Positions 148-62,823 of a stretch of 64,000 nt of DNA are shown one piece after another. Below the pieces are notes generated by a model that ran no database searches, had not been told where the DNA came from, and saw only the letters and a program-made list of their open reading frames with translations. The stretch's first letter is position 1. Each line of letters opens with the position of its first letter. The stretch is from Phreatobacter sp. (GTDB taxonomy: Bacteria > Pseudomonadota > Alphaproteobacteria > Rhizobiales > Phreatobacteraceae), in assembly GCF_022843985.1 (NCBI RefSeq), contig NZ_JALHMP010000006.1, positions 1 through 64,000 of the forward strand, read 5' to 3'. A program made the translations under genes and the position numbers.

Positions 148-1341
148 GTGACCAAGCCGCGACTCGGGTTGATGCAATGCGCCGTCGCCGGCCTTTTGGC
201 GCTGGCTGTCGGTCTGGCAGGGCCGGCGCTCGCCCAGGACAATTTCCAGACCACGGTCCGCAACGCCATCCTCGTCGATGTCGGGACGCAATCGGTGCTG
301 TTCGAGAAGGCCGCCGACGAACTCCAGGCCCCCGCCAGCCTGGCCAAGCTGATGACGCTGGCGGTGATCTTCGAGGAGATGCGCCAGGGACGGCTGCTTC
401 CCGACCAGGAGATCGTCATCAGCGAGGATGCCTGGCGGCGGGGAGGGGCTCCGTCGCGGACCTCCTCCATGTATGCGGCCGTCAATTCCCGCGTGAAGGT
501 GCAGGACCTGCTGCGCGGCGCCATCATCCAGTCGGGCAACGACGCGACGATCGCCCTCGGCGAGGCCGTATCGGGCACCGAGGCGAATTTCATTCCGGTG
601 ATGAACAGCCGGGCGCGGACCATCGGCCTCACCCAGTCGGTGTTCCGCAACACCACCGGCCTGCCGCACCCGGAGCAGCGCACCACGGCCCGCGAGATGG
701 CGCGCCTCGCCGACCACATCATCCGCACCTATCCCGAACATTACCCGCTCTACAGCGAGAGGGAATTCACCTGGGGCGGCATCCGCCAGCAGAACCGCAA
801 TCCGCTGCTCGGGACCTATAACGGCGCCGACGGACTGAAGACCGGCTATATCGATGAGGCCGGATTCAACCTTGCGGGATCGGCGGTGCAGAACGGCCAG
901 CGGCTGATCGTCGTGGTGTTGGGCGCCCGTTCGCTGCAGGAGCGCTCCAACGAGGCGCGCAAGCTGCTCGACTGGGGCTTCCGCTCCTTCGAGCTGCGCG
1001 ACCTGTTCCAGGAACAGGAAACGATCGGCGAGGTCGCCGTCTTCGGCGGAGCGCAGGGCAGCGTTCCCGTCACCGCCGGCAATCTGGTGCGGCTGCTGCT
1101 GCCGCGCGGCCAGTCGGACCGCGTGACGGCCCAGATCGTCTATCGCGGCCCGGTCCGGGCACCGGTCAAGCAGGGCACGGAGGTCGGCCAGCTCCGGGTG
1201 ATGCGTGGCGCGCAGCTCGCCCTTCAGGTGCCGGTCTTCGCCGCCGCCGATGTCGAGACAGGAACCCTGAGCCAGCGCGCCATGCAGGGCGCCTGGGAAC
1301 TCGCCACCGGCTGGATCCGGTCCGGGGCGGCTCGGCCTTGA
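148..1341 (+). CDS. D-alanyl-D-alanine carboxypeptidase (penicillin-binding protein 5/6 type, S11 family)
   Basis: A 397-residue periplasmic serine peptidase that removes the terminal D-Ala from peptidoglycan stem pentapeptides. The three penicillin-binding motifs are visible in order: SLAK with nucleophile Ser64 and Lys67, SGN at 129-131 and KTG at 231-233. Residues 1-30 form a signal peptide (hydrophobic core, then an ALAQ cleavage region). A beta-rich C-terminal domain of the PBP5_C type follows from about residue 285. The start is GTG, preceded by a GGGAGG ribosome site about 6 bases upstream; no better ATG exists before the signal peptide. Its stop overlaps the start of tmk, which suggests translational coupling. 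Family names such as dacC or dacF are used for such proteins; the exact paralogue cannot be decided here. Confidence 0.93.
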   Translation: MTKPRLGLMQCAVAGLLALAVGLAGPALAQDNFQTTVRNAILVDVGTQSVLFEKAADELQAPASLAKLMTLAVIFEEMRQGRLLPDQEIVISEDAWRRGGAPSRTSSMYAAVNSRVKVQDLLRGAIIQSGNDATIALGEAVSGTEANFIPVMNSRARTIGLTQSVFRNTTGLPHPEQRTTAREMARLADHIIRTYPEHYPLYSEREFTWGGIRQQNRNPLLGTYNGADGLKTGYIDEAGFNLAGSAVQNGQRLIVVVLGARSLQERSNEARKLLDWGFRSFELRDLFQEQETIGEVAVFGGAQGSVPVTAGNLVRLLLPRGQSDRVTAQIVYRGPVRAPVKQGTEVGQLRVMRGAQLALQVPVFAAADVETGTLSQRAMQGAWELATGWIRSGAARP

Positions 1342-2003
1342 GTGCTCCCGCCAAGGCCCGCGGACGCTTCATCACGCTGGAGGGCGGGGAGGGGGCCGGA
1401 AAATCGACGCAGGCGCGCCGCCTTGCCGCCTTCCTCGAACAGCGCGGCTACGATGTCGTCATGACCCGCGAGCCCGGCGGATCGCCCGGCGCCGAGATCC
1501 TCCGCCATGTCCTGCTCTCCGGCGGCGCCGCGCCTTTCGGGCCGGAGGCCGAGACCATGCTCTTCGCCGCCGCCCGCCGCGACCATCTCGCCGTCACCAT
1601 CCTGCCGGCATTGGCGCGCGGCGCCTGGGTGATCTGCGACCGTTTCGCCGATTCCACCCGCGTCTATCAGGGCCATGCCGGCAAGGTGCCGCTCGATTTT
1701 ATCATGGCGGTCGAGCGCGTCACCGTCGGCGAGAACCGGCCGGACCTGACGCTGATCCTCGACCTGCCGGCCAAGGTGGGGCTCGCCCGCGTCGCCAGCC
1801 GCGGCGAGGCGACGGACCGTTTCGAGAAGGAGGGCCTTGCCTTCCACAACAAACTGCGCGCCGGTTTCAAGGCCATTGCCCGCGCTGAACCCGAGCGCTG
1901 CAGGCTGATCGATGCCAGCGGCGACGCCGACATTGTCGCCGACGCCATCCGCAACGCGGTAACGGAGCATTTCGGCCTCGGGGCCCGGCTGGTGGCCCCA
2001 TGA
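1338..2003 (+). CDS. tmk: Thymidylate kinase
   Basis: Phosphorylates dTMP to dTDP with ATP, an essential step of dTTP synthesis in the cytoplasm. The 221-residue protein has a P-loop GGEGAGKST at 16-24, the DRF motif that binds the nucleotide base and phosphate, and a LID region rich in Arg (RVASRGEATDRF). The start is TTG, placed inside the overlapping stop of the carboxypeptidase gene (TTGA); no upstream ATG or GTG is compatible with the conserved N-terminus, so the rare TTG with coupled translation is the best choice. The gene ends in an ATGA overlap with holB. tmk and holB adjacency is widespread in bacteria. Confidence 0.96.
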   Translation: MSAPAKARGRFITLEGGEGAGKSTQARRLAAFLEQRGYDVVMTREPGGSPGAEILRHVLLSGGAAPFGPEAETMLFAAARRDHLAVTILPALARGAWVICDRFADSTRVYQGHAGKVPLDFIMAVERVTVGENRPDLTLILDLPAKVGLARVASRGEATDRFEKEGLAFHNKLRAGFKAIARAEPERCRLIDASGDADIVADAIRNAVTEHFGLGARLVAP

Positions 2004-3049
2004 TCTCGGAGACTGCCGCCGACCGCCTCGACGGCGCCCCGCATCCGCGCGAACGGCAGGTCCTGGTCGGCCATGGCGCGGCCGAGCGCCAGCTGCTCGA
2101 CGCCTATCGCGGCCCGCGCATGCACCATGCCTGGCTCATCGGCGGTCCCGAGGGCATCGGCAAGGCGACGCTCGCCTATCGCTTCGCCCGCTTCGTCCTC
2201 GCCCATCCCGTCGCGGCGGCCGTCCCGGTCGCGACGGCGGACCTGTCCGTGCCTGACGCCCAACCGGCGGCCCGGCGCATCGTCGCCGGCTCCCATCCCG
2301 ACCTGCTGGCGCTGCGGCGCATCGCCGAGGCCGGCAAGGAGAAGATCCCCCAGGACATTTCCGTCGGCGCGATGCGCGAGATCGTCCGCTTCTTCGGCTC
2401 GACGGCGGGCGAGGGCGGCTGGCGCATCTGTATCGTCGATGCCGCCGACGACCTCAACCGCTCCAGCGCCAACGCCCTGCTGAAACTTCTGGAAGAGCCG
2501 CCGCCGCGCTCGCTCTTCCTGATCGTCGCCCATATGCCCGGCCGGCTCCTGCCGACCATCCGCTCGCGCTGCCGCGCCCTGCCGCTCCTGCCTCTGACGG
2601 CGGACGAGATCGCCGCCGGCCTCCAGACCTTCGACGACATCCGCCTGCCGGCCGAGGAGGCGGGCCGCATCGCGGCCCTGGCCGACGGCAGCCTGCGCCG
2701 GGCGCTGGAGATCGCCGCGGGTGGACAGGAGAGCTTTGCCGGCGAGGTCGAAAGGCTGCTGGCGAGCCTGCCGGCCCCCGATCCGCTGGCCATCCACGGC
2801 CTTGGCGACAAGCTCGCACGGCGCGACGACGGTCTGTTCGAGCTGTTCCTGCGCATGGTCTTCGCCCATCTGCACCGGCAGGTCCTGGCGGAGGCGGGCG
2901 AGGGGGCCCGCCGCCTTGCACCCCATGCCGAGGTATGGGAGAAGGTCGAGGCTACCGCGGCGCAGGTGCGCACGTTCAATCTCGAACGCAAGCCCTTCGT
3001 TTTCCAGGTTTTCGGCTGGCTCGCCGAGGCCGGCCGGCGGCGCGCCTGA
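2000..3049 (+). CDS. holB: DNA polymerase III subunit delta' (clamp loader)
   Basis: Delta' is the stator subunit of the clamp-loader complex that places the beta clamp on DNA. The 349-residue protein has a degenerate AAA+ P-loop at 49-57 (GPEGIGKAT), the sensor-1 stretch [14 protein letters not shown], and the characteristic TIRSRC arginine-finger segment, all typical of alphaproteobacterial HolB. The C-terminal helical collar domain fills roughly residues 230-349. ATGA overlap with tmk indicates coupled translation, and metG starts 23 bases downstream. Nothing unusual was seen. Confidence 0.93.
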
Positions 3050-3072
3050 CCCCGAACCGTCCGAAACGCCTC

Positions 3073-4617
3073 ATGTCGAAGCCCCGCTTCTACGTCACGA
3101 CCGCCATTTCCTATCCCAACGGCGCGCCCCATATCGGCCACGCCTATGAGGTGATCGCCACCGATGCGATCGCCCGTTTCATGCGGGCGGACGGGCGCGA
3201 GGTCCAGTTCCTGACCGGCACCGACGAGCACGGGCTGAAGATGGTCCAGACGGCGGAGCGCGAGGGCCTCGCCGTGCGCGCGCTGGCCGACCGCAACGCC
3301 GACCGGTTCCGCGCCATGGCGGGGGCGCTCGCCATTTCCAACGACGACTTCATCCGCACCACCGAGCCGCGCCATTATCGTGCCAGCCAGGCCATCTGGG
3401 AGCGGATGGTGGCGGCCGGCGACATCTATCGCGGCGGCTACGAGGGCTGGTATTCGGTCCGCGACGAGGCCTTCTATGGCGAGGACGAGACCTCGGTCGG
3501 CCCGGACGGCGTGCGCGTCGGCGGGCAGGGGACCCCGGTGGAATGGACCAAGGAGGAGACCTTTTTCTTCCGCCTGTCCAAGTACCAGGATCGTCTCCTC
3601 GCCCATTACGAGGCCCATCCGGACTTCGTCGGACCCGACACGCGGTTCAACGAGGTCATCAGCTTCGTCAAGGGCGGCCTCACCGACCTGTCGGTGTCGC
3701 GCACCACCTTCGACTGGGGCGTCCCGGTGCCCGGCGCCGACGGCCACGTCATGTATGTCTGGGTCGACGCCCTGACCAATTACATCACCGGCGCCGGCTT
3801 TCCCGACGAGACCGACCCGAAATGGGCCTTCTGGCCGGCCGATCTCCACGTCATCGGCAAGGACATCGTCCGTTTCCACGCGGTCTACTGGCCGGCCTTC
3901 CTCATGTCGGCCGGCATCGCCCTGCCGAAGCGCGTCTATGGCCACGGCTTTCTGTTCAACCGCGGCGAGAAGATGTCGAAGTCGCTCGGCAATGTCGTCG
4001 ATCCCTTCGCCATGGCGGAAGCCTATGGCGTCGACGCCATGCGCTATTTCTTGCTGCGCGAGGTCGCCTTCGGCAATGACGGCTCCTATTCGCACGAGGC
4101 GATCGTGGCGCGGACCAATGCCGATCTCGCCAACGACATCGGCAACCTCGCCCAGCGCTCGCTGTCGATGATCGCCAAGAACTGCGACGGCGTGCTGCCG
4201 ACGCCCGGCGCCTTCAGCGCCGAGGACGAGGCGATCCTCGCCGCGGCCGAAGGCATGCTCGCCCTGTCCCGCGAGGCGGTGGGCAGCCAGCAGCTGCACC
4301 GCTGGCTCGAGGCGGTCTGGGCCGTCGTCGGCGATGCCAACCGCTATTTCGCGGCGCAGGCGCCCTGGGCGCTGCGGAAGACCGATCCGGCGCGGATGGA
4401 GACGGTTCTCTACGTCACGGCCGAAGTCATCCGCCAGGCGGCGATCCTGGCCGCGCCCGCCATTCCGCTCGGCGCGCCCAAGCTGCTCGACCTGCTCGCG
4501 GTCCCGGAGGACGCGCGCGACTTCGCCGCGCTCGCCACCCGGCTGAAGCCCGGGACGGTCCTGCCGCCGCCGGCCGGGGTCTTCCCGCGCTATGTCGAGC
4601 CGGAGACGGCGGCCTGA
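3073..4617 (+). CDS. metG: Methionyl-tRNA synthetase (short form without C-terminal tRNA-binding domain)
   Basis: Charges tRNA-Met with methionine in the cytoplasm. The 514-residue class I synthetase has the HIGH signature at 20-23 and KMSKS at 300-304, with an anticodon-binding helical domain after that. The reading frame is open further upstream, into the end of holB, but the conserved N-terminus ([18 protein letters not shown]) starts at the ATG chosen here. The protein is of the compact type common in alphaproteobacteria: no EMAPII-like C-terminal domain is present, and no zinc-knuckle cysteine pairs are seen in the connective peptide. It ends in a TGATG overlap with tatD. Confidence 0.96.
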
Positions 4618-5411
4618 TGTGGGTCGACAGCCATTGTCATCTCGACTTCCCCGAGCTTGCCGCCGATCGTGGCGGCCTGATCGGCCGTGCCGTCGCGGCG
4701 GGCCTTCAGTCCATGGTGACGATCTCCACCCGTGTGCGCCGCTTCGATGCCATCCGCGCCATCGCCGAGGCCCATGAGGGCATCTGGTGCTCGGTCGGCA
4801 CCCATCCGCACAATGCCCACGAGGAGCTCGACGTCACGGCAGAGGCGCTGGTGGCGCTGGCGGACCATCCCAAGGTCATCGCCATCGGCGAGGCCGGCCT
4901 CGACTGGTTTTATGACAAGTCGCCGCGGGACGCCCAGGAACAGGGGTTCCGTACCCATATCGCCGCGGCGCGCGCCTCTGGCCTGCCGCTGGTCATCCAT
5001 GCCCGCGAGGCCGACGAGGCGGTCGCCGCGATCCTCACGGAGGAAATGGGGAAGGGGGCCTTCACAGCCGTCCTGCACTGTTTCACCGGCTCCCGCGACC
5101 TCGCCATCACCGGCATTGCCCTCGGCCTTTACGTGTCGTTTTCAGGCATCGCGACCTACAAGAGCGCCGCCAATCTGCGGGAACTGGCGGCCGAACTGCC
5201 GGCGGACCGCATCCTGGTGGAGACCGACGCGCCCTATCTCGCGCCGGGCAAGTTCCGCGGCAAGACCAACGAGCCGTCCTATGTCGTCGAGACCGGCCGG
5301 GTGATCGCCGAGGCACGTGCCGTCACGCCCGAGGCGATGGCGCGGCAGACCACCGAGAATTTCTACCGCCTCTTCGCCAAGGCCGATCCCGGCCGGCGCC
5401 TCGCGGCCTGA
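4617..5411 (+). CDS. tatD: TatD-family metal-dependent hydrolase (putative DNase)
   Basis: A 264-residue TIM-barrel metallohydrolase. Metal-binding residues can be read in the usual order: HCH at residues 6-8, the EAGLDW glutamate, the HAREAD and HCFTG histidines, and the ETDAPYLAP aspartate near the C-terminus. TatD-type enzymes are 3'-5' exonucleases in some species and D-aminoacyl-tRNA deacylase-like in others; which activity applies here cannot be judged from sequence. Its ATG shares one base with the metG stop. metG-tatD-metallohydrolase is a conserved order in Hyphomicrobiales. Confidence 0.93.
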   Translation: MWVDSHCHLDFPELAADRGGLIGRAVAAGLQSMVTISTRVRRFDAIRAIAEAHEGIWCSVGTHPHNAHEELDVTAEALVALADHPKVIAIGEAGLDWFYDKSPRDAQEQGFRTHIAAARASGLPLVIHAREADEAVAAILTEEMGKGAFTAVLHCFTGSRDLAITGIALGLYVSFSGIATYKSAANLRELAAELPADRILVETDAPYLAPGKFRGKTNEPSYVVETGRVIAEARAVTPEAMARQTTENFYRLFAKADPGRRLAA

Positions 5412-5418
5412 GCCGACC

Positions 5419-6219
5419 ATGGCGCTGACCCTGACCATCCTCGGCTGCGGCTCCTCCGGCGGCGTGCCGCGGGTGGCCCAGGGCTGGGGCGCCTGCGACC
5501 CGTCCGAACCGCGCAACCGGCGGCGGCGCTGTGCCTTGCTCATCGAGCAGAGCGGACCGGAGGGCGTCACCACCGTCCTGATCGATACCGGACCGGACCT
5601 GCGTGACCAACTCCTTGCAGCCGGGGTCACGCGGCTCGACGCGGTGCTCTACACCCACGACCATGCCGACCATACCCACGGCATCGACGACCTCCGGCCG
5701 CTCGTTCTCGCCATGCGGCGGCGCATCGTCGCCCATGCCGACGCCACGACCGCCGGATCGCTGCGCGAGCGGTTCGGCTATTGCTTCGCCTCGCCGCCGG
5801 GCAGCGACTATCCGCCCATCGTCGATCTGAGCCTGTTCGAACCGCATGTGCCGATCATGGTGCCCGGGCCTGGCGGCGCCTTGACCTTCCAGCCATTCCC
5901 CGTGGAGCACGGCGCCGGCTATCGCGCCTTCGGGTTTCGTGTCAAAAACTACGTCTATTGCCCTGATATCAATCGGCTTCCCGACGAGAGTGCCGGCTAT
6001 TTCGACAGCGCGGAAACCGTCATCCTGGACGCGCTGCGCTACACGCGCCATCCGACCCATTTCTCCGTCGACGAGGCCCTGGCGGTCATCGCGCGCCACA
6101 GGCCCGACCGCGCCGTGCTGACCAATCTCCATTCGGACATCGACTATGCGACCCTGGCAGCGCGGCTGCCGGCGGGCATCGTGCCGGCTTATGACGGGAT
6201 GGCCATCCGGACAGGCTGA
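5419..6219 (+). CDS. MBL-fold metallohydrolase, PhnP-like
   Basis: A 266-residue metallo-beta-lactamase-fold phosphodiesterase-like enzyme. It begins with the LGCGSSGGVPR motif of the PhnP/ElaC branch and carries the metal-binding motif THDHADH (His80, His82, Asp84, His85), followed by a later VEHG histidine and an aspartate in the CPDI region. PhnP itself cleaves cyclic ribose phosphates in phosphonate use, but no phn genes are near, and this copy is part of the housekeeping tatD block. The substrate is therefore unknown. The reading frame is open upstream, but the ATG chosen lies 7 bases after the tatD stop and fits the conserved N-terminus. It is the last gene before the dif-like site. Confidence 0.88.
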   Translation: MALTLTILGCGSSGGVPRVAQGWGACDPSEPRNRRRRCALLIEQSGPEGVTTVLIDTGPDLRDQLLAAGVTRLDAVLYTHDHADHTHGIDDLRPLVLAMRRRIVAHADATTAGSLRERFGYCFASPPGSDYPPIVDLSLFEPHVPIMVPGPGGALTFQPFPVEHGAGYRAFGFRVKNYVYCPDINRLPDESAGYFDSAETVILDALRYTRHPTHFSVDEALAVIARHRPDRAVLTNLHSDIDYATLAARLPAGIVPAYDGMAIRTG

Positions 6220-6300: not shown

Positions 6301-6328
6301 ACATTCCATAATATGTCTTATGCGAATC
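6301..6328. other. Candidate dif site (XerC/XerD chromosome dimer resolution)
   Basis: A 28-bp site in the gene-free gap 6220-6430. The left arm is ACATTCCATAA (6301-6311), the centre is TATGTC (6312-6317) and the right arm is TTATGCGAATC (6318-6328). The inner CATAA-N6-TTATG palindrome is the core of known dif sites (11-6-11 organisation). Read on the minus strand, the first arm GATTCGCATAA matches 9 of 11 positions of the E. coli XerC arm and the second arm TTATGGAATGT matches 7 of 11 of the XerD arm. The site is strikingly AT-rich for this genome. Genes switch strand around it, and in Agrobacterium and Sinorhizobium the ntr region lies near the terminus (from memory). It could alternatively serve as the mazG promoter. 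Confidence 0.75.
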
Positions 6329-6430
6329 ATGGTTGGCTCATGCTGACGCCCGCCTCGCCCCTGGCCGAGACCTGTGGATGACCCTCCTGCGCGCTTGCCA
6401 TCACTGGCCCGTCCCCGCTCAGACTGCCCC

Positions 6431-7291
6431 ATGACATCCATGCCGCAGACGCCGACCCCCTCCGACGACATTGCCGATCTCGTGGCCATCATGGCCTGGC
6501 TGCGGGCGCCGGGCCGCGGTTGTCCCTGGGACCTGGCACAGACCTTCGCGACCATCGCGCCCTATACGATCGAGGAAGCCTATGAGGTGGCTGATGCGAT
6601 CCAGCGCGGCGACTTCGCCGATCTCAGGGATGAACTGGGCGACCTGCTGCTGCAGGTCGTTTTTCACGCCCGCATGGCCGAGGAACAAGGGCTCTTCGCC
6701 TTTCCCGACGTTGTCCGCGCCATCACCGGGAAGCTCATCCGCCGGCATCCCCATGTCTTCGGCGGCGACCGCGACGTCAGCCCGGCGGCGGTGAAGGGCC
6801 TTTGGGACAGCATCAAGGCCGAGGAGAAGCGCGCCAGGGCTGCCGAACGGCAGCGGCTGGGCCTGCCGGCCGAAACGGCGGCCGGCGTGCTGGCGGGAGT
6901 TCCGACCGCCCTTCCCGCCCTGACCCGCGCCCTGAAGCTTCAGGCCAAGGCCGGCTCGGTCGGCTTCGACTGGAATAATGTCGATGCCGTGCTCGCCAAG
7001 ATCGTCGAAGAGGCCGGCGAGATCGTCGCGGCGCGGCGCGACGGTGCCGGGCCGGCGGCCATTGCCGACGAGGTCGGTGACCTGCTGTTCGCTGTCGTCA
7101 ATCTCGCCCGCCACCTCGATGTCGATCCGGAGGCGGCCCTGCGCGGTACCAATGCCAAGTTCGAGCGGCGTTTCGCCGCCATCGAGGCGGCGCTGGCGGC
7201 CGAAGGCCGCAAGCCGGCCGAGGCCTCGCTCGCCGAGATGGACGCGCTCTGGGACGAGGCCAAGCGGCGCGAGAAGGCCGGCGGGGCCTGA
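6431..7291 (+). CDS. mazG: Nucleoside triphosphate pyrophosphohydrolase MazG
   Basis: Hydrolyses (d)NTPs to NMP and pyrophosphate; in E. coli it clears aberrant nucleotides and lowers ppGpp. The 286-residue protein holds two MazG domains: the first has [12 protein letters not shown] and the metal-binding DELGDLL motif within roughly residues 30-105, and the second has IVEEAGEIV and DEVGDLLF in about 185-255. The start is uncertain: neither the ATG chosen (6431) nor the in-frame ATG at 6374 has a convincing ribosome site; the later one leaves a normal N-terminus ([21 protein letters not shown]). It is the only plus-strand gene between the dif-like site and ispDF, and it converges on hflX with 8 bases between stops. 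Confidence 0.92.
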
Positions 7292-62785: not shown

Positions 62786-62823
62786 GGGTCCGTCCTCGAA
62801 TTCAGTCTTGTTGGGAAGGGAAA

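Follow-up and report, generated by a model that had tools for sequence, protein, structure and literature searches.

The 28-mer at 6301-6328 of the window (the whole 64,000-nucleotide stretch of Phreatobacter sp. DNA analysed here) is almost certainly the chromosomal dif site, an assignment that rests on its sequence, copy number and position and on the polarity of the KOPS octamers around it. The original prediction had already read it as the XerC/XerD dimer resolution site, and its single copy, terminus position and conservation all support that reading. As a kind, the dif found here is ordinary; it is the kept gene neighbourhood that may be unfamiliar to specialists. The coordinates and the layout proposed for the site, a 28-bp element organised 11-6-11 around a CATAA-N6-TTATG core, proved exact when read in the window, with arms at 6301-6311 and 6318-6328 and a centre at 6312-6317. 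The core, CATAATATGTCTTATG, occupies 6307-6322, of which CATAA is 6307-6311 and TTATG is 6318-6322. On the minus strand the 28-mer reads GATTCGCATAA GACATA TTATGGAATGT, which is the usual order of XerC arm, centre and XerD arm, and its G+C content, counted by eye, is 9/28. The core pattern has one match in the window as against none in 100 shuffles, and a tRNA search of the window found none. The site and its neighbours are as follows.

5419-6219, plus strand: PhnP-like MBL-fold hydrolase gene, the XerD-side neighbour (NCBIfam NF038231 at 214 bits, below the cut-off; weak match to TIGR03307 PhnP; synteny)
6301-6311, minus strand: predicted XerD-binding arm of dif, ACATTCCATAA on the plus and TTATGGAATGT on the minus strand; the XerD arm of the Bradyrhizobium japonicum dif starts with TTATGGAAT (PMC2731167)
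6312-6317, minus strand: central hexamer, the expected place of strand exchange, GACATA on the minus strand; the same in 11 of 12 family genomes and GGTATA in one
6318-6328, minus strand: predicted XerC-binding arm of dif, GATTCGCATAA on the minus strand; the XerC arm of B. japonicum has the same sequence (PMC2731167), and that of E. coli agrees at 9/11 bases
6443-7291, plus strand: mazG (nucleoside triphosphate pyrophosphohydrolase), the XerC-side neighbour (NF007113 at 340.8 bits, cut-off 208; synteny)

The predicted dif of B. japonicum USDA 110, GATTCGCATAAGGTATATTATGGAATAT (Carnoy and Roten 2009, PMC2731167 Table 1), shares 25/28 bases with the Phreatobacter site and, as here, is intergenic and near the terminus. 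The XerC arms of the two are identical and the XerD arms are the same except for one outer base (ending AT there and GT here), whereas the centre differs by two bases, GGTATA there and GACATA here. The same table gives TAATCGCATAAGATATATTATGGAACTT as the predicted dif of Agrobacterium; its sites were predicted from sequence and skew, not by experiment (PMC2731167). The dif of E. coli has in common with the present site the 11-6-11 organisation, the CATAA-N6-TTATG core and the FtsK octamers that face it, but its XerD arm is TTATGTTAAAT, compared with TTATGGAATGT here. The XerC arms of these two, GGTGCGCATAA and GATTCGCATAA respectively, are equal at 9/11 bases, the figure originally given for the minus-strand arm and obtained again on recounting. 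The TTATGGAA sequence is frequent in Alphaproteobacteria.

The original prediction called for a single copy per chromosome and for conservation between related genomes, and both were found. Across the whole 4.33-Mb genome the arms ATTCGCATAA...TTATGGAAT match perfectly only at 6301-6328; two further places fall within the three mismatches allowed, each with exactly three, and the bare core CATAA-N6-TTATG occurs three times. One perfect site is likewise present in each of 14 genomes scanned for the arms, and CGCATAA-N6-TTATGGAA is found exactly once per genome in all 12 same-family genomes (centre GACATA in 11, GGTATA in one). In a genome collection, the 25-mer ATTCCATAATATGTCTTATGCGAAT recurs exactly in 62 other records, once per contig and nearly all of them from Hyphomicrobiales, a number far beyond chance. 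Because these loci were picked by exact match, invariance within the 25-mer is there by construction, and what is informative is the number of exact matches, the single place and the diverged flanks. The flanks are mostly unrelated across the 62 loci, and outside the 28-mer conservation drops to the background level after two or three bases. Just outside the XerC arm (window 6329-6334 and the homologous positions at 61 loci) the adjacent base is A in 54% and the base six positions out is T in 74%, so that 6329-6334 is weakly conserved yet lies outside the 28-base definition of dif. Six loci (L020, L032, L046, L051, L065 and L069), otherwise unrelated in their flanks, share the sequence ACATCGCC a few bases ahead of the site.

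The KOPS octamer of E. coli is GGGNAGGG. Such sequences direct FtsK to dif (PMC3025954), and in the window they point toward 6301-6328 from both sides.

440-5056, plus strand: four GGGNAGGG octamers facing dif (440, 1386, 3523 and 5049), all on the plus strand
6909-57533, minus strand: fourteen GGGNAGGG octamers facing dif, all on the minus strand; one more lies on the plus strand at 62813

The plus-to-minus counts are therefore 4:0 to the left of the site and 1:14 to the right, and the following 60 kb of the same contig hold one forward and 18 reverse octamers. The same switch is seen further afield: forty sampled 20-kb stretches of a 3.45-Mb contig of Pseudolabrys sp. Root1462 (G001) gave 54:4 to the left of its site and 2:45 to the right, the octamers pooled across the 62 loci gave 77:9 on one side and 3:95 on the other, and around 92 class-level sites 411 octamers point toward the site and 29 away from it. 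Two complete same-genus genomes locate the switch more closely with the KOPS-like 10-mer CGGGCAGGGC. In G399, where the site is at 1,553,355, this sequence changes strand, among the matches listed, between 1,550,612 (last plus) and 1,555,230 (first minus); in G398, with the site at 3,729,001, the matches listed change strand between 3,695,337 (last plus) and 3,731,824 (first minus). These brackets, of 4.6 kb and 36.5 kb respectively for the matches listed, both contain the site. Hand counts of the matches listed were 33:5 before and 0:12 after the site in G399, and 51:6 from hemE to the site and 0:21 after it in G398.

The hemE gene flanks the origin in Caulobacter and its relatives and is an origin marker in Alphaproteobacteria. 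It lies 2.22 Mb from the site in one complete same-genus genome of 4.5 Mb (about 49%) and 2.52 Mb from it in another of 5.0 Mb (about 50%), while in a third, the 7.4-Mb G408, the distance is 3.93 Mb one way and 3.47 Mb the other (47%). In such complete genomes dnaA and hemE are about 0.7 to 0.8 Mb apart, and we infer the place of the origin from hemE together with the opposite KOPS switch near hemE in G398. The site is opposite this presumed origin, as seen in the complete same-genus genomes, its own genome being in 53 contigs. Position opposite hemE in complete relatives and the KOPS flip at the site thus bear out the terminus location originally proposed; the GC-skew extremum looked for at about 6.3 kb did not appear, the skew of the window being noisy and without an extremum there. 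In G001 the sampled GC skew is mostly positive to the left of the site and negative to the right, and its sampled cumulative maximum falls in the stretch that begins at 1.70 Mb, some 0.2 Mb short of the site.

The genes of a dif system, that is, xerC-like, xerD-like and ftsK with a gamma domain, are all present in the genome. The best XerC match (C3:210756-211649) scores 298 bits to the XerC model and 217 to the XerD model, and the best XerD match (C5:53485-54372), which adjoins an accA-like gene, scores 320 bits to the XerD model and 262 to the XerC model, so that each model has a different best gene. Both candidates are below the curated NCBIfam cut-offs (335 for XerC and 330 for XerD), as are those of most of 14 control genomes, and the FtsK gamma domain at C13:115666 is above its cut-off. 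Two more XerC/XerD-like recombinase genes lie on opposite strands at C34:1181-6637, one with an internal stop in its XerC alignment. Binding of XerC and XerD, activation of XerD and recombination at the site would be expected from what occurs in other bacteria. Crossing-over between sister chromosomes would produce a chromosome dimer, and the GGGNAGGG octamers facing the site from both sides would steer FtsK at the closing septum. XerC would bind at 6318-6328 and XerD at 6301-6311; FtsK would join two copies of dif and activate XerD, and the recombinases would swap strands at the 6-base centre to split the dimer.

The gap that holds the site runs from the PhnP-like gene to mazG, whose start codon candidates span 6374 (GTG) to 6443 (ATG), and the window has no further gene between the two. 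Wherever both neighbours are in view among the 62 records, the site has a PhnP-like gene on one side and mazG on the other, and its orientation is always the same. Such a palindrome might be a mazG operator or promoter element, or an end signal of metG-tatD-phnP, conserved through gene regulation, as its place in the gap before mazG and its travelling with these genes would suggest. We consider this very improbable and reject it because the spacing is not constant (mazG lies between a few bases and 6.6 kb away, phnP between about 40 bases and several kb) and because of the KOPS polarity; regulation of mazG would explain neither the strand switch of the octamers nor a place opposite the origin, and an Rfam search of the window gave no match.

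Less probable still is that a mobile element using host XerC/XerD left it behind for attachment or resolution, in which case it would not be the host's own dif. Phage contigs do bear the same arms, and this genome does have a Tni-type transposon with a dif-like pair, but the site is a single, syntenic copy that no family genome examined lacks, and 11 of the 12 share its centre; the phnP-mazG gap here contains no other gene, and the host dif would need another place in a genome with no second perfect site. The phage sites, among them those of L076, L078 and L082, have the same arms as dif but differ from it in having other central hexamers, in the lack of phnP and mazG in the DNA examined and in not being a single terminus site. 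Ten viral contigs (L076-L085) carry ATTCNCATAA-N6-TTATGGAAT, with the XerC arm ATTCGCATAA in nine, and have centres unlike that of the host (e.g., CCGTCA, CCTTCA, CATACA); some of these sites adjoin clear phage genes, for example those for a terminase or a replication protein. They look like phages exploiting host Xer enzymes for dimer resolution or integration, and a literature search on phage-plasmid dif-like sites returned no matching paper. The transposon pair, in tandem and in opposite orientation at C29:30679-30747 of the Phreatobacter genome (L002:1495-1563), reads TATGCGCATAA-CGTATG-TTATGGACCCT on the minus and AGTTCGCATAA-TGGCCG-TTATGTTAAGG on the plus strand. On one side it has TniA/TniB/TniQ-type transposition genes and on the other a Fic-domain gene, beyond which come T5orf172, DUF2130 and AAA_13 genes; it is possibly the Xer-dependent resolution site of a Tn5053/Tn7-like transposon. 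Its cores, at C29:30685 and 30726, were rejected as competing dif sites because they adjoin the TniABQ-type genes and have other arms.

The neighbourhood of the dif site extends well beyond the family. Among 385 alphaproteobacterial genomes drawn evenly, CGCATAA-N6-TTATGGAA occurs in 90, nearly always once, and the reversed pattern gave a single match; the class-level draw is limited to genomes whose XerD arm is of the GGAA type. Eighty class-level sites (L198-L277) were taken regardless of their neighbours, with up to 10 kb on each side, and by a hand count that ignores kinship 61 of them have at least one of metG, tatD, phnP, mazG and hflX nearby. All but five of the 61 (56/61) are oriented as here, with mazG/hflX beyond the XerC arm or phnP-tatD-metG beyond the XerD arm, and a given cluster would be expected by chance in such a stretch in an estimated 1% or so of genomes (20 kb of 2-4 Mb). 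Of the 19 sites lacking these neighbours, several have odd centres (e.g., TCCTCT, TTAACA, TGTGAT) and occur as a second copy within their genome; these may be plasmid or element sites. One genome, G202, has three copies of the motif: L276 (C1:537671) is beside phnP and has the centre GACATA, and the other two, L277 (C11:307600) and L198 (C15:89326), lack such neighbours and are centred on TGTGAT and GGAGAA, as if secondary replicons had their own dif.

A literature search found no paper combining 'dif site', mazG and terminus, which is weak evidence that the synteny is unreported; dif-related sequences have been said to occupy different genetic environments (PMC2731167). A tentative reading, to which we give somewhat less than even weight, is that the alphaproteobacterial dif is locked in an ancestral metG-tatD-phnP-[dif]-mazG-hflX order, mostly in fixed orientation, that the terminus has shifted little with respect to these genes over the diversification of the class, and that selection on terminus position, beyond descent, may hold them together. 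For Phreatobacter itself, the position of dif pins the terminus in a draft assembly of 53 contigs. More widely, the kept neighbourhood would be an old chromosomal landmark, against the statement of differing environments, and it offers a practical guide to locating dif in Alphaproteobacteria, namely to search between the PhnP-like gene and mazG.
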